From Shimia thalassica (GTDB lineage: Bacteria; Pseudomonadota; Alphaproteobacteria; Rhodobacterales; Rhodobacteraceae): a DNA stretch of 64,000 nt. Below are positions 15,241 through 21,663 of the stretch, in pieces. A program made the translations under genes and the position numbers. Positions within the stretch are counted from its first letter, which is position 1; each line of letters opens with the position of its first letter. The notes beneath the pieces were generated by a model that saw only the letters and a program-made list of their open reading frames with translations, did not search any database and was not told the DNA's origin. The DNA lies in the NCBI RefSeq assembly GCF_001458215.1, contig NZ_CYTW01000004.1, positions 1 to 64,000 on the forward strand, given 5' to 3'.

Positions 15241-16260
15241 TTGGCCAATGACGAAAAGCGCTCTTTGACTCTACGCGACGTATCGGAAGCATCTGGTGTT
15301 TCTGAAATGACAGTCAGCCGAGTTTTGCGCAACCGCGGTGATGTCTCGAATGCAACGCGGGAACGTGTTCTGCGCGCTGCCAAGGACCTTGGGTATGTCC
15401 CGAACAAAATCGCCGGCGCTCTGGCAAGCCAACGGGTCAACCTTGTTGCGGTGATAATTCCCTCGCTCTCGAACATGGTCTTTCCAGAGGTGCTTGGCGG
15501 TATCAGTCAGGTTCTTGAAAATACCGAGCTTCAACCCGTCGTGGGCGTAACGGATTACTTGCCGGAAAAGGAAGAAAAGGTCCTTTATGAAATGCTGTCT
15601 TGGCGTCCTTCGGGCGTCATTATTGCGGGCCTAGAACACACCGAAGCCGCGCGGGCGATGTTGAACGCCAGCGGCATTCCGGTGATTGAGATTATGGATG
15701 TTGACGGCAAAGCCGTAGACACGATGGTTGGCATTTCGCACCGTCGGGCCGGACGGGAAATGGCAAAAGCCATTCTAAAGGCCGGTTATCGCAATATCGG
15801 GTTTCTCGGAACAAAAATGCCGCTGGACCATCGGGCGCGAAAGCGGTTCGAGGGGTTCACAGAAGCCCTGGCCAAAAACGGCGTCGAGATTGCCGAGCGT
15901 GAATTCTATTCCGGCGGGTCGGCTCTTGCGAAAGGGCGCGAGATGACAGAGGCCATGCTCAAGCGCAACCCAGAGCTGGATTTCCTGTATTATTCCAATG
16001 ACATGATTGGGGCGGGTGGTCTGCTTTGGTTGCTTGAAAAAGGCTATGACATTCCCGGAGAGATCGGCCTTGCCGGTTTCAACGGGGTCGAACTGCTTCA
16101 GGGGTTGCCGCGCCATCTGGCAACGATGGACGCTTGTAGACGCGAGATTGGCACCAAAGCCGCCGAGGTTCTTTGGGCACGTGTTCAGGGCGAAGATCCG
16201 GACATGATCCACGAGCTGGTTCCCAAAATCTCGTTCGGGGACACCCTCAAGCGTCGCTGA
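15241..16260 (+). CDS. LacI/GntR-type transcriptional regulator
   Basis: The 339-residue product has the LacI-family N-terminal helix-turn-helix and hinge (LTLRDVSEASGVSEMTVSRVLRN, then LGYVPNKIAGALAS, residues 9-62) followed by a periplasmic-binding-like ligand domain. The wording of the hinge and core (GALASQRVNLVAVIIPSLSN) resembles regulators of the gluconate GntR kind. TTG is the start codon: an AGAGGGGG ribosome-binding sequence lies just upstream and the HTH begins within nine residues. Neighbouring genes are not obvious sugar-acid genes, so the target set is probably elsewhere, apart from possible autoregulation. Confidence 0.9.
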   Translation: MANDEKRSLTLRDVSEASGVSEMTVSRVLRNRGDVSNATRERVLRAAKDLGYVPNKIAGALASQRVNLVAVIIPSLSNMVFPEVLGGISQVLENTELQPVVGVTDYLPEKEEKVLYEMLSWRPSGVIIAGLEHTEAARAMLNASGIPVIEIMDVDGKAVDTMVGISHRRAGREMAKAILKAGYRNIGFLGTKMPLDHRARKRFEGFTEALAKNGVEIAEREFYSGGSALAKGREMTEAMLKRNPELDFLYYSNDMIGAGGLLWLLEKGYDIPGEIGLAGFNGVELLQGLPRHLATMDACRREIGTKAAEVLWARVQGEDPDMIHELVPKISFGDTLKRR

Positions 16261-16272
16261 CGGATTTGAAAC

Positions 16273-17196
16273 CTATTTCTTAAGAGACTGGCGTGCTTCG
16301 CGCATCGCATTTCTGAAATGCGGGGCACGACGACGCGCCAGAACAGCTTCGCAATACCGGATCAGCAACTTTGGCCGGTTTTCACGTTGCAGGCGTTGCA
16401 GCATCTCTTTCTGAAAGCGTTGATTTTCCCGACGTCCCCGCAAAAGAGTGTAGAATTGCGTTGTGGACAATGTCCCTGCAACGCTGCCTTCGATCACGGG
16501 TTTGAGAATTCCCAATTGGAGCCACAGTGACGCGATGCGGTGCCCCATAAAACGACACCGGTATTTGTGAATGTTTGCACCACGGAACAGCGCCGCGTGC
16601 ATCGCATCCAAGGATGCCCGCGGATCATAGAACAGATGCACATCCGCAGCCTTTTGCACCATATCGGGGCCATAGCCATAGCGGCTGTTGTAATCGCGTT
16701 TCCACGCCTTGTGATACCGCGTTTCCCACGGGGCGACTTCGCGATCCAGTGTCGCTTGTGGAGAGATCGCGACAACCGTCGATCCCGGTGCCGCAGCAGA
16801 AAATACGGTTGCCGCATACCCGCCCATTGAAGCGCCGTAAAAGACAACCTTGTCGAACTTTTCAAAGAACCCGTCTTCGCGCAAGCGGTCAAAAAAGTCG
16901 AAGACGTCCTCGTCACGATACCAAGACCACCCATGCGCCATCAGGCCAAGCATGGACCATCCCCGCGATTGAACAAACCCATAGCCCCACGGCATTTTAT
17001 CGTCACCGCGATCATAGATGTGATCAAGGTTTTCAAAGGTCACAATCAACGTCTTGCCGCGTTCAACAAAAAGCGCCGTGTGCTCGTGGCCGATTTCCTC
17101 ATAGAATCCTTCGGCGGCCCCGATTTCGGCAAGGTTCTCGCGCCACGCCTCTCGGGTCACGGGTTGATCTGCTGCAATGTCGGATTGCTCGTTCAT
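16273..17196 (-). CDS. Alpha/beta-hydrolase-like protein in a glycosyltransferase cluster
   Basis: The 307-residue product contains a nucleophile-elbow-like motif GASMGGYAATVFS (about residues 121-133), the G-x-S-x-G pattern of alpha/beta hydrolases. It also has a characteristic opening (TALFVERGKTLIVTFENLDHI) shared with proteins common in Rhodobacteraceae that are often misannotated. The C-terminal 60 residues are very basic and probably helical (RRENQRFQKEML...). The ATG at 17196 was chosen because it lies 10 nt after the stop of the upstream glycosyltransferase, whereas a longer start overlaps that gene. It may deacylate or acylate a glycan, but no substrate can be named. Confidence 0.6.
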   Translation of the reverse strand: MNEQSDIAADQPVTREAWRENLAEIGAAEGFYEEIGHEHTALFVERGKTLIVTFENLDHIYDRGDDKMPWGYGFVQSRGWSMLGLMAHGWSWYRDEDVFDFFDRLREDGFFEKFDKVVFYGASMGGYAATVFSAAAPGSTVVAISPQATLDREVAPWETRYHKAWKRDYNSRYGYGPDMVQKAADVHLFYDPRASLDAMHAALFRGANIHKYRCRFMGHRIASLWLQLGILKPVIEGSVAGTLSTTQFYTLLRGRRENQRFQKEMLQRLQRENRPKLLIRYCEAVLARRRAPHFRNAMREARQSLKK

Positions 17197-17206
17197 GCGT
17201 ATGTCC

Positions 17207-18205
17207 TTAGCGAAAGATATCCGGCGCGGCGCTGACAAGCTTGGCCCGGCATTCTTTGATAAAGCTAGGTTCGACCAGAAAATCACGCGACAGCTTTTCA
17301 ATCGAAGCATCCCCCTTGAGAGCTTCAAGAGCCACTTTTGCGCGGAATTCGGGGTCTTCGACCGGTGCCTTCTGTTTGACGATCTTGGTCGGGATCAGCG
17401 CCGCATCCACATCGATTTCATGCTTTTTGATTAGCTTGTCCATGAACGATCCGCGACGCGGGCGGTTGTTTTCTTTTTCTTCCAGCCGCGGCTTCATACG
17501 CCGCGCCCAGAAATGCACGCCCTTGGTGTCATCACTCAGCCGTTCTTCGATATTGAAGCGGCTCATGATCATATGGTTCCGGTCCTTGAACGAAATTGGA
17601 TAAAAGGCGGAAACCGGTTCAGCGTATTTGATTTCACCGCTTTGTTGCAGGAAATAGGTCACGGCCGCCGGTCCGGTGAACCCCCAGTTCTGTTCCGTCA
17701 TGTGGACAGCCCGACCCGCATCTTTTTCGGCCTGAAGCTCTTTTTGCTGCCACGGCTTCAACCACGGGCCAATCGCATATTCATCCTCAAAGAACTCCAG
17801 CATCGCATCAAGCGCTTTCGAGTTTCGGGGCAAGCCCAGAACCGCATTGCAAACAAGATTGTCCTTTTCCCATCCAAACACGCTTTGACGCGTGAAATTG
17901 AAAGGGCGATAGCAATACATGTCTGCATCGACCCAGATCTTGTCGGTTTTCTTGAGCATGTTCAGGCGCCACAAATCCGCATGGATCGCGGGGCTGCCTG
18001 TGCGCGCATGGCGAAACATCGGGTTCGACGGGAATATCTCTTCGGCATCTCCGGCATGCACCCCTTCGGGCACATTCGGGATGGGCTCATAACTATACAA
18101 TGTGGTGTGATGGCCTGCGTCCGCAAAGGACTTGAGGCACAGTTGTTCAAGCCACGACAACTTGCCGCCGATCCACAAGCTCGCAATTTCAGGTAGGTTC
18201 GCCAT
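17207..18205 (-). CDS. DXD-type glycosyltransferase with a C-terminal IS3 OrfA-like HTH segment
   Basis: The 332-residue protein is a GT-A-type sugar transferase. Its N-terminal part carries HADLWRLNMLKKTDKIWVDAD with the metal-binding DXD (VDADMYCYRPF, near residue 95), as in capsule/GT32-like enzymes. The last 50 residues (17210-17359) do not look like a glycosyltransferase. They contain FRAKVALEALKGD, then L-S-x-x-F-x-V-x-P-x-x-I, and end AAPDIF, closely following the N-terminal helix-turn-helix of IS3-family transposase OrfA (typically F-K-A-K-V-A-L-E-A-L...V-x-P-x-x-I). The reading frame is continuous through a lysine-rich linker. The ATG at 18205 precedes a clear beta strand (ASLWIG). 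It is co-oriented with two other glycosyltransferases. Confidence 0.8.
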   Translation of the reverse strand: MANLPEIASLWIGGKLSWLEQLCLKSFADAGHHTTLYSYEPIPNVPEGVHAGDAEEIFPSNPMFRHARTGSPAIHADLWRLNMLKKTDKIWVDADMYCYRPFNFTRQSVFGWEKDNLVCNAVLGLPRNSKALDAMLEFFEDEYAIGPWLKPWQQKELQAEKDAGRAVHMTEQNWGFTGPAAVTYFLQQSGEIKYAEPVSAFYPISFKDRNHMIMSRFNIEERLSDDTKGVHFWARRMKPRLEEKENNRPRRGSFMDKLIKKHEIDVDAALIPTKIVKQKAPVEDPEFRAKVALEALKGDASIEKLSRDFLVEPSFIKECRAKLVSAAPDIFR

Positions 18206-18313
18206 GTCTGCTCTGCACTTTGTTTTCAATTTTGAAACAGTTTACCACATCAAATCCCTTTGTCTCTGAAATTCAGTAAATTTGATAGGTTTCAAAAGGG
18301 TGTAAGGTCCCCG

Positions 18314-20557
18314 CTAGTGGGTGGTTTCCTGCTTTTCGACGGTAAAGAAATATCCATCAGGATGATTGTCATGCACAATGTCATCCGGCACCACGTCCGG
18401 CCCGGCCAGAAAGACATTGGCCCCGAACACATGGTGCATTTTCGAAAGCTGCTCCATCCGGTAGCCGGTCAAATCCGCATAGAAATTCGAGTAGTTTGTT
18501 GTCTCTTTCAGCGCATCGATCTTGCCACGGTGCTTATCAACGCTGAAGTGGTGGGCCTCGGCAATCTCGGGATCTTCCATCAGGCGCGCCATCTCTTTTT
18601 CAAGCGCGGGGATCATGCGTTGGATGGACGTATCTTCAATCGAGTTGTTGTTCATCCGGAACCAATAGGCGAGACCCTGATCCCGATCCACGTGGTTCAC
18701 ACGGCCGCGATCCCGTTTGACCAGAAAGCTCTCGGCGGATCGCACTGCATAGTGGTTCAATTGAACCAGATCGTATCCCACGGTGTCAGACGTGGAGCGC
18801 CACGCATTCCGGTACATGTCTTTGGGCAAAGGTTGCCCTGACCCGTTCACCCAACGGATTTCATTCCACAATTGCGGGTTCAATCCTTTGGGCCGGTGGA
18901 CACCCAGTTTTTTGAACAGGCCGATATTGCGGAAAAGTGTCTTAAATCCCCATGCCTGATGCGGTTTGCGGGTCATTTCTCGGGCGCATTTGGTGTATTG
19001 GGCGATCAACGGTTCGTCGACATATTCGTGAATGTCCGAATTTCCAAACAGCCGCCAGGTGCAGGAAATCATGTTGGCGTCACCAACCGCCTTGAACAGA
19101 TCCGAAAGGTGGCCCTCGCCCGTTTTGATGTTGATGAATTCATCCACATCCATCGAGATTACCCAGTCGGCGTTCTTGACGATCTCTTCCTTTTCGCCAG
19201 CATGAAGGGCGGCGTGCTGTGGCTTCAACCCCGTGCCCTTGAATGGGTTATCGCGGTGCTGAAGGATGCCTTTTTCCTGCAAGAGGTCCAGAAAGTCGTC
19301 CGTCCCGTCGGTACAGTCATTGGTGTATACAATAAAATCCTGCACCCCAATGGCGCGATGATAGGCAACCCACTCGAGGATAAACGGGCCTTCGTTTTTC
19401 ATACAGGTGATGATGCAGGTGCGGTTGCTGGACTGATCCACTTTGGGCGCTTCCAAAATTGGCATGCGCACCGGTTTGTAGCCAAAGCGATCCTTCGACA
19501 TGGCCAAAAGATCATCATCTTCGACAAGTGATGTTTTGGGAACAATACGCGACACCGTATCAGTCGGATGGCGCAATCCCATGAACCGGAAAAATGGCAC
19601 CCACTCGCGCGGGTTGGGCTTTGTTCCGACAATCCGCACCAGCCGCCAAACGGCCTGCGGTCCGGCTTTTTCGGGTGCAACGCACCATCTGCGCCGCAGC
19701 TTCGTGGCGTCGAACTGAACGCAAATGTGATCCGCAAAGCAGGCATCTACGCCCTTGCGGCTGCGCCAAGGGTAACAGTTGCGCCCGGCAAGAATGACAG
19801 ATCCGGTTTCGGAATTCACGGTGAAGTCAAAGAGGTTATCAACGCCGTCGCGTGGCATGACCAGATCACAGATATCCAAAAGGGCGACTGCGCGGGCCTT
19901 GTCCAAAAACCGATGGCGCGCCCATTCAAACAGCTGCAACTCTCGCTGGGGCGACTCCCACGGGGCACCTTCCGGAATGTCCATGCGATCCTTGCCCGGA
20001 GCATCGGGTGCGTTAAACGGATGGGCTTCGGCGGGCAAATCGGGCTGTCCCAACGGATGGTCCGCCTGAACCAGAACAACGCATTTCAGGCCCTTGATCT
20101 TGCGCGCCCCTTGCTTGAGCGCTTTGGCATAGTCGTCGTTGGTGTCCGGTCTTGCACGATCCAGAATAAGGGCCGCTTCGAGACCCTGTGTTTCGACGTG
20201 ATAGGCAAGCCATTCCAAGGTTGCGTCGATACTTTCCCCGTTCCGGATGGCAAAGAAGGTGTTCAAACCTTCGAAAAGGTCTTGCTCGTGATCCTCAAGT
20301 GAAATTGCCGCCTGCGCCCCTGCGACCGCTAAAACCGGAGAATTTGGTCCCTCGGTCGATACGATCATGCCATCGCCGACGCTGCGGATCATGGTGATGG
20401 ATGTTGTGTCATCTGCCGCTGTGATTTGGTCGGCGGTCACACCGACAGCAAAATAGGTTTGCGCAGATCCGTCAGGACGCCGAACTGCTGAAAGAACCAC
20501 ACCGTCGCCCACCTTTTGATGGGCCATGTCGCGTCGATGGAACACCGTCGAAGCCAT
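18314..20557 (-). CDS. Large two-module glycosyltransferase (PF13704-type, tandem)
   Basis: The 747-residue protein has two related halves. The C-terminal half (about 380-680) is a clear glycosyltransferase family 2-like domain: TCIITCMKNEGPFILEWVAYH, VYTNDCTDGTDDF, and the metal motif SMDVDEFINI. The N-terminal half (about 95-260) shows the same order in weaker form: FFAIRNGESIDATLEWLAYH, LILDRARPDTNDD, and LLDICDLVMP in place of the DVDEF motif, so its DXD is lost. The first copy may be non-catalytic and bind acceptor or regulate. The C-terminal half is homologous to the next gene (20596-21663). The protein lacks membrane segments and is probably cytoplasmic. Acceptor and sugar are unknown. 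Confidence 0.82.
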   Translation of the reverse strand: MASTVFHRRDMAHQKVGDGVVLSAVRRPDGSAQTYFAVGVTADQITAADDTTSITMIRSVGDGMIVSTEGPNSPVLAVAGAQAAISLEDHEQDLFEGLNTFFAIRNGESIDATLEWLAYHVETQGLEAALILDRARPDTNDDYAKALKQGARKIKGLKCVVLVQADHPLGQPDLPAEAHPFNAPDAPGKDRMDIPEGAPWESPQRELQLFEWARHRFLDKARAVALLDICDLVMPRDGVDNLFDFTVNSETGSVILAGRNCYPWRSRKGVDACFADHICVQFDATKLRRRWCVAPEKAGPQAVWRLVRIVGTKPNPREWVPFFRFMGLRHPTDTVSRIVPKTSLVEDDDLLAMSKDRFGYKPVRMPILEAPKVDQSSNRTCIITCMKNEGPFILEWVAYHRAIGVQDFIVYTNDCTDGTDDFLDLLQEKGILQHRDNPFKGTGLKPQHAALHAGEKEEIVKNADWVISMDVDEFINIKTGEGHLSDLFKAVGDANMISCTWRLFGNSDIHEYVDEPLIAQYTKCAREMTRKPHQAWGFKTLFRNIGLFKKLGVHRPKGLNPQLWNEIRWVNGSGQPLPKDMYRNAWRSTSDTVGYDLVQLNHYAVRSAESFLVKRDRGRVNHVDRDQGLAYWFRMNNNSIEDTSIQRMIPALEKEMARLMEDPEIAEAHHFSVDKHRGKIDALKETTNYSNFYADLTGYRMEQLSKMHHVFGANVFLAGPDVVPDDIVHDNHPDGYFFTVEKQETTH

Positions 20558-20595: not shown

Positions 20596-21663
20596 TTATG
20601 ATTTGCTCGTATTAACAACTTGATACCACCGAACCAGCTGGCGCTGCAAACCTTGCGGCAGAACCGCAGAGCCAGACGCCGTAAGTATTTGGGTCAGCAG
20701 TTGATGATAGTCTTCTTCACGGACCAATTCCCGAAAGCGGTTCTGGTGCCACGCCACGGCTTTTGAATGCAGTTCGGCAATCCCGTCAATTTGCCTCAGG
20801 TCTTCTAGGGCCACCTCTGTTGCTCCGGACATCTTTTTGATCGAATGATCTTCCACCGTATTGAAGTTTCGTTCGACCCAATACGCCAGATCCACCTTCT
20901 TGTGGGCCCGATTGGGCAAACCTCGTGCGCTTTTGACCAAAAAAGCAGCCGCCGAACGAATGGCATAGTGGTTCAACTCAACCATTGAGCGCCCGTTCGA
21001 GATCATGAAGAGAGACAGGCGTTTGGTGTTGTCCGCAAAAGACGCCGGAAGAGGCTTGCCAGACCCGTCGACAAATGTCGGCGATGTTGCATGGGGGCCT
21101 GTTTTTTGTTGCGGGCGATGCACCCCAAGCTGATTGAACGGGCCTTTGGTCCGAAACAGCGTTTTGAAGAACCCGGCAGACACCGGATAAGCCGTATCTG
21201 GCGGGATCGCGCGTGTGAACTGCTCGGTGACAGGTCGATCCTCAATGTCTAACACATCGTTGTGCCCGAACAGACGCCAAGGCAGGATCACCCCGTCCGC
21301 CTGATCCGGCACCGCGCCCAACAGGTCGGAAATGGTGTGCCCTTTGGTATGAATATTGAGATACTCATCAACGTCAGACACAAGCACCCAATCTGCCTTT
21401 TTGCGCAATGGATGTTTCCATGCGGACTTGAGCGCTTGCCACTGGATTGACTTCTTGGGCTGCTTTTGATGTGGGACGTGGGTCAAAACGCCAGCGCTCT
21501 GCAACCTATCCAGAATCAGATCGGTCCCGTCATCACAGTCGTTCGAATACACAAGGAAATCGGTCACACCCGCTGCGCGGTGATGTGCAATCCATTCCAA
21601 AAGATACGGACCTTCATTGCGAACCGATGTAACCGAGAGAACTCTCAAACGCTGCCCTGACAA
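20596..21663 (-). CDS. Glycosyltransferase family 2-like protein (PF13704-type)
   Basis: This 355-residue protein is a single-module glycosyltransferase homologous to the C-terminal half of its downstream neighbour. Shared elements in order are SVTSVRNEGPYLLEWIAHHRAAGV, VYSNDCDDGTD, WVLVSDVDEYLNI (catalytic/metal motif), FFKTLFR, LGVHRP and VELNHYAIRSAAAFLVK. The Asp-x-Asp-Glu motif is intact. It starts the minus-strand glycosyltransferase run and diverges from the creatininase-type gene at 21919 across 255 bp. Such proteins are frequent in marine Rhodobacteraceae and are thought to build surface polysaccharide or glycolipid. Confidence 0.85.
   Translation of the reverse strand: MSGQRLRVLSVTSVRNEGPYLLEWIAHHRAAGVTDFLVYSNDCDDGTDLILDRLQSAGVLTHVPHQKQPKKSIQWQALKSAWKHPLRKKADWVLVSDVDEYLNIHTKGHTISDLLGAVPDQADGVILPWRLFGHNDVLDIEDRPVTEQFTRAIPPDTAYPVSAGFFKTLFRTKGPFNQLGVHRPQQKTGPHATSPTFVDGSGKPLPASFADNTKRLSLFMISNGRSMVELNHYAIRSAAAFLVKSARGLPNRAHKKVDLAYWVERNFNTVEDHSIKKMSGATEVALEDLRQIDGIAELHSKAVAWHQNRFRELVREEDYHQLLTQILTASGSAVLPQGLQRQLVRWYQVVNTSKS

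Follow-up and report, generated by a model that had tools for sequence, protein, structure and literature searches.

A glycosyltransferase encoded in the window, i.e. the whole 64,000-nucleotide stretch of Shimia thalassica DNA that was analysed, ends in a 49-residue tail for which descent from the N-terminal H+HTH of IS3-family OrfA is well supported by sequence comparison. That this transposase segment was joined to the enzyme and domesticated, as a preliminary description of the region had proposed, is likewise well supported, given one supported clade of tailed enzymes, homology by hhalign and HMM, constraint and new signature residues. For the whole account, in which the captured and domesticated H+HTH would now act as a docking or packing module, a function that we infer, the probability is put at about 0.5. 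The features discussed below are as follows.

17207–18205, minus strand: probable glycosyltransferase with OrfA-derived C-terminal tail, 332 amino acids, stop codon included (ATG at 18205; AlphaFold2)
17390–18205, minus strand: GT-A-like domain, residues 1–272 (sub-cut-off Pfam matches and Foldseek)
17921–17929, minus strand: D-A-D (DXD) motif, residues 93–95 (sequence)
17357–17389, minus strand: linker, residues 273–283, poorly constrained (dN/dS 0.28 as ratio of means to 0.36 as median, 17 close pairs)
17210–17356, minus strand: tail of well-supported IS3 OrfA descent with three predicted helices, residues 284–332 (profile, hhalign, HMM, AlphaFold2, column counts)
17315–17353, minus strand: tail helix 1, residues 285–297 (AlphaFold2 model)
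17279–17302, minus strand: tail helix 2, residues 302–309, the first HTH helix (AlphaFold2 model)
17216–17269, minus strand: tail helix 3, residues 313–330, the former recognition helix, with Cys at the position of the conserved Trp of IS3 OrfA (AlphaFold2 model; column counts)
16273–17196, minus strand: alpha/beta-hydrolase-like protein, downstream of the glycosyltransferase (Pfam matches under cut-off)
18314–20557, minus strand: GT2_4/GT92-type protein, upstream of the glycosyltransferase (Pfam)
20596–21663, minus strand: second GT2_4/GT92-type protein (Pfam)

The glycosyltransferase and the descent of its tail

The product of the open reading frame at 17207–18205 (minus strand), here called P0001, was modelled as a whole by AlphaFold2 with a mean pLDDT of 93.7 and a pTM of 0.90. 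Its Pfam matches (Gb3_synth, Gly_transf_sug and Caps_synth) were weak and all under cut-off, no named glycosyltransferase family of Pfam being found above it (best 17.1 bits vs. 22.3). Foldseek placed the protein with structures of Legionella SetA and glycogenin, which we take to be GT-A (E-values down to 1.3 × 10−7, TMq about 0.4), and the D-A-D residues 93–95 are among the invariant columns of a 45-row alignment, in line with the earlier view that all but the tail is a DXD glycosyltransferase. P0001 is thus probably, from sequence and model, a GT-A-like glycosyltransferase with a predicted role in surface glycan. In distant homologues, the glycosyltransferase domain occurs in two copies (L020, L023) or three (L024) within very long proteins.

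The C-terminal residues of P0001 read DPEFRAKVALEALKGDASIEKLSRDFLVEPSFIKECRAKLVSAAPDIFR and contain FRAKVALEALKGD, V-E-P-S-F-I and AAPDIF, the OrfA-like HTH motifs that had been pointed out at this end of the protein. When 15 tails were compared with 12 OrfA proteins by hhalign, the probability was 98.3% (E = 2.4 × 10−14, 45% identity over 49 columns), a score helped by the picking of 11 of the 12 OrfA from matches to the tail profile, the twelfth being the genome's own IS3. An OrfA HMM scored all 30 of 30 aligned tails at 19.4–51.7 bits, compared to a maximum of 8.3 bits among 6,000 shuffles and of 5.3 bits among reversed tails. Chance likeness is excluded by the hhalign E-value together with tail scores far above those of shuffled and reversed sequences. 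A check free of OrfA picking was given by Pfam HTH_Tnp_1, the profile against which the preliminary description had proposed to judge the tail: a Cognatishimia tail (L102) lies above the cut-off (27.8 vs. 24.1 bits), scores of 17.1 and 13.9 bits leave two tails of Shimia type under it, L070 gave no match, and P0001's own tail matches nothing in Pfam (HTH_Tnp_1 included) or NCBIfam.

When the 15-tail profile was run against 295 genomes of the family, the tailed enzymes came first among the matches listed (15, E from 1.4 × 10−27 to 1.9 × 10−19); after a gap, the listed matches continue from E = 2.2 × 10−9 downwards, the best of them covering 47–49 positions and often multicopy. The best 15 of the non-enzyme loci that were inspected (L054–L068, frames of 86–178 amino acids) read as IS3-type OrfA, several with an OrfB-like frame nearby. 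Among 20 regions drawn from the listed matches, which overlap partly with L054–L068 and 18 of which were chosen for frames of at least 135 amino acids, 19 were OrfA or its remnants and one was a flippase fusion (L119), the one exception at the opened places in this look for the same tail on other enzymes. Ribosomal eL40, tried as a relative of the tail profile (best E = 0.0045 among solved chains; Pfam Ribosomal_L40e in 4 of 15 members, best 0.0024), was set aside because the PDB matches span only about half of the tail, whereas OrfA matches its full length and much more strongly. NCBIfam matches of the 15 tails were weak (IS66 TnpA in 8 of 15 members, best 0.0046; Rrf2 in 3 of 15), and one IS3 OrfA searched by sequence against solved chains gave no clear match.

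Predicted alone by AlphaFold2, the tail forms three matching helices (pLDDT 93.0), and in the full protein its pLDDT is about 94. Its structural neighbours are mostly HTH proteins (ArdK, TrpR, HetR and sigma region 4), and 2jn6, which we take to be an HTH_Tnp_1 protein, is among them with a Z of 4.9. As the best Z is 6.2, the top two neighbours are mitoribosomal and Foldseek with the tail returned nothing at E < 0.4, this list speaks for a common fold only. In IS2, PMC3219604 describes a DNA-binding domain with helices at 13–26, 32–38 and 43–58 and a turn at 39–42, and the predicted layout of the tail helices is the same. The likeness to the N-terminal domain of IS3 OrfA (PF01527, HTH_Tnp_1; H+HTH residues 13–58 in IS2, PMC3219604) thus extends from the three helices and the identity given above to the end motif A..LF. 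In contrast to that domain, the tail is C-terminal on an enzyme, lacks the basic arm, the zipper and OrfB, mostly has Cys for Trp and, in P0001, is not recognised by Pfam. The leucine-zipper region is absent, P0001 stopping one residue past the OrfA-aligned F.

The earlier observation that OrfB and IS ends are missing was reproduced: at E = 10−3, two OrfB queries matched nothing either within the window or across the 49 loci L069–L117, and no inverted repeat of at least 14 bp was found at 16000–18600. IS3-like copies exist elsewhere in the genome, as do rve matches.

Relatives, neighbouring genes and fused enzymes

A homologue of the enzyme (E = 10−5 or better) was identified in 138 of the 295 family genomes and a tailed enzyme, among the matches listed, in 15. 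A scan of genome contigs yielded 49 related loci (L069–L117); tailed loci include Shimia, Cognatishimia, Nereida, Pacificibacter, Tateyamaria, Celeribacter, Sulfitobacter, Palleronia, Rhodovulum and Amylibacter. Among the matches listed from 385 genomes of the class (E = 10−4), there were no further tailed enzymes beyond two; the other listed matches were frames of 45–182 amino acids, of which five loci were read. Of the 14 records that a plasmid search returned, most are homologues lacking the tail region; the records carry the annotation hypothetical protein or glycosyltransferase, or none. One tailed orthologue (L017, G013:C1:1603184-1604178) lies in two reading frames and is probably frameshifted.

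In a tree of 92 enzyme domains, all 49 tailed rows fall inside one clade of 54 rows (support 100/99), with L113, whose tail is degraded, counted as tailed and L015, L017 and L114 omitted as partial. The fusion is conserved in other Rhodobacteraceae, a point for which the preliminary description had proposed a survey, and the recent chance fusion that it offered as an alternative is ruled out by the distribution of the tail across many genera together with purifying selection. Five rows inside the clade are tailless (L107, L110, L115, L117 and L016); the tail states on the tree require five changes, most simply one gain and four losses. The tail would then have been gained once, before many present genera of Rhodobacteraceae/Roseobacteraceae split. 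The most OrfA-like tails, however, occur in Shimia and Cognatishimia, at nested positions in the enzyme tree that would not be expected from one simple capture. In a tail tree, 47 distinct tails are parted by one branch (99/94) from 17 OrfA and the HTH of L119. The OrfA Trp is kept in Shimia-type and Cognatishimia tails (L075–L079, L081, L082 and L102), mostly with QIKQW for FIKxC, although these tails are nested among relatives that have Cys. The tail tree conflicts with the enzyme tree, and 49 columns give too little signal to choose, so that the Trp-bearing tails may be ancestral, the result of reversion or the result of conversion from an IS.

GT92-type genes lie in the DNA examined around the glycosyltransferase in 45 of the 49 related loci, and the 16 Shimia-type loci (L069–L084) have two GT92-type genes, the tailed glycosyltransferase and then the hydrolase. 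In half of these (8/16), a sulfotransferase gene stands between glycosyltransferase and hydrolase; in L079 the hydrolase is present only in pieces. The open reading frame continues into a second enzyme in 7 of 56 distinct relatives: a methyltransferase-like domain in L010, L096, L105 and L115 (the L105 piece having no Pfam match), an FkbM methyltransferase in L107, with L117 alike by eye, and a sulfotransferase in L113. The sulfotransferase is a separate gene in L070–L074 and others, and in L097, L101 and L102 the methyltransferase-like protein has a gene of its own, located downstream, the L102 homologue being just under cut-off. Compared to P0001, these fused relatives share the transferase domain and differ in having a second enzyme where P0001 ends in its transposase-derived module. 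The distant glycosyltransferase L031 has a C-terminal fusion to a protein alike, by eye, to the window hydrolase.

At least 47 of the 49 tail positions are kept in none of the seven fused rows and in 46 of the 49 unfused rows (Fisher test, p = 5 × 10−7, a value that takes no account of relatedness and is not to be read as a probability); on the tree, the seven fused rows trace back to only some five events. The tail was lost without fusion in L110 and L016, and its end in L014. Among sister genes of Rhodovulum, L097 has a tailed glycosyltransferase and an overlapping, separate methyltransferase-like gene, and L115 is tailless and fused to a homologue of the latter. A degraded partial second copy of the glycosyltransferase was observed at L102:7117-7275, after the tailed gene and before the methyltransferase-like gene.

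Selection and residue change in the tail

For Shimia-like close pairs (17–23 pairs), mean dN divided by mean dS came to 0.049 (enzyme), 0.284 (linker) and 0.068 (tail); the corresponding values for the full set of usable pairs (89–125) were 0.144, 0.585 and 0.322. These ratios indicate that the tail is kept by purifying selection, more loosely than the enzyme over long times.

Residues were counted in 47 distinct tails and 17 OrfA, in tail numbering. Position 36 is Trp in 17/17 OrfA, whereas in the tails it is Cys in 40/47 (P0001 included), Ala in 1/47 and Trp in 6/47; Lys5, present in 17/17 OrfA, is kept in 4/47 tails. Position 29, at the start of helix 3, is His in 16/17 OrfA and acidic in none of the 17, but Glu or Asp in all 47 tails, and just before the turn Val, where OrfA mostly has Asp or Gly, 35/47 tails have Leu. 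Arg24 is found in 45/47 tails vs. 1/17 OrfA, position 34 is basic in 47/47 tails (Lys in 4/17 OrfA), and Phe32 is new in the tails (37/47). Position 37, Lys or Arg in 17/17 OrfA, is Arg in 35/47 tails. The basic N-terminal arm of OrfA is absent from the tails: 30 tails average a net charge of +0.37, compared to −0.08 for the core of 12 OrfA and +3.25 when their arm is included. Helix 3 has a mean charge of +1.7 in tails vs. +0.33 in OrfA, the slices compared being one residue out of register with uncharged ends. This pattern of change, as read from the sequences, is that of a domain that appears to have taken on a new job, not that of decay.

Possible roles of the tail

In the explanation that we consider most likely, the 49-residue H+HTH of an IS3-family OrfA was joined to the C-terminus of the glycosyltransferase without its zipper and without OrfB. 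The tail, still predicted to be three-helical, kept under purifying selection and with its own new conserved residues, would no longer serve transposition nor, probably, DNA recognition. It would act instead as a compact module for docking or packing, tethering the transferase to a partner, the likeliest candidate being a decorating enzyme from the adjacent gene (hydrolase, sulfotransferase or methyltransferase) or another copy of the glycosyltransferase. A module for protein interaction was among the roles listed in the preliminary description, and a protein-interaction or folding role fits best of those considered. Docking on such a partner would explain why the tail end is missing when an enzyme of this kind is fused directly, and this reading draws mainly on the fused rows without a complete tail and on partners encoded next door in relatives. 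Against it, the fusion junction might simply remove the tail end, a self-stabilising tail would look identical, and over the full set of usable pairs tail evolution outpaces that of the enzyme (0.32 vs. 0.14). A wider proposal, in which the OrfA head became a protein-docking module that assembles surface-glycan enzymes, a non-covalent stand-in for the fusions of relatives, and was taken up more than once (by the glycosyltransferase and by a flippase), is tentative.

The next most likely explanation, which is nevertheless doubtful, is a cap that acts in cis, packing on its own transferase for folding, solubility or active-site gating with no outside partner. The high confidence along the whole chain, with the pTM and the tail pLDDT given above, and the near-constant retention of the tail in unfused relatives are consistent with such a cap, but pTM is weak evidence of packing, the poorly constrained linker parts the tail from the enzyme, and the unfused relatives L110 and L016 do without a tail. 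Continued drift of a passive leftover, tolerated since an old read-through fusion, would account for the several losses (L107/L117, L110, L115 and L016) and for the greater variability of the tail than of the enzyme over all pairs; the close-pair dN/dS of 0.03–0.07, well under that of the linker, and the new near-invariant positions make it unlikely.

The tail might still bind DNA or RNA, coupling glycan synthesis to gene control or tethering the enzyme to the nucleoid. This is possible, at low probability, and the regulatory link between DNA and glycan raised in the preliminary description is not favoured on the residue evidence. The predicted retention of the H+HTH fold, the higher mean positive charge of helix 3 compared to the OrfA sample and the Arg still present at position 37 in 35/47 tails all fit nucleic-acid binding; the loss of the basic arm, of the zipper, of Lys5 in most tails and of Trp in 41/47, together with the acidic position 29, argues against it. 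Mutants described in PMC3219604 point both ways: in IS2 OrfA, R50H and S44N harm DNA binding and W49R retains binding but cannot transpose, W49 being suggested by the authors to contact the catalytic domain, whereas binding by IS911 W42F, assayed in a truncated protein, was slight or absent. Given the behaviour of IS2 W49R, loss of the tail Trp tells more strongly against transposition than against binding to DNA.

When DNA-binding domains of transposases are domesticated, they usually become DNA-binding regulators. The tail is a variant of transposase-domain domestication, in which many genera retain a transposase HTH on a metabolic enzyme, its DNA-facing features eroded and new residues conserved. 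If it docks enzymes, a transposon HTH can become part of a scaffold, and docking can be tested directly on the relatives that nature provides, some tailed, some with a truncated tail and some fused to the enzyme itself. In SETMAR, a fusion of a host methylase with the Hsmar1 transposase described in PMC6326780, the transposase likewise lies downstream of a host enzyme; SETMAR, however, binds DNA sequence-specifically, whereas the tail is only a 49-residue HTH of doubtful DNA binding, bacterial and from another transposase. No description of a fusion between a glycosyltransferase and an OrfA tail was found in the literature searched, in which subscription journals and preprints are thinly covered.

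The flippase fusion (L119; G047:C16:99549-101096, minus strand) is a 516-amino-acid polysaccharide flippase (PF01943, 74 bits) with an OrfA-like HTH at its N-terminus, and no OrfB match was found in the 4.5-kb stretch containing it. Like the glycosyltransferase, it carries such an HTH on a polysaccharide-assembly protein (HTH_Tnp_1 18.7 bits, under cut-off). Unlike the glycosyltransferase tail, its HTH is N-terminal, occurs as the complete fusion in just one genome of the 120 searched and groups with OrfA, not with the tails.
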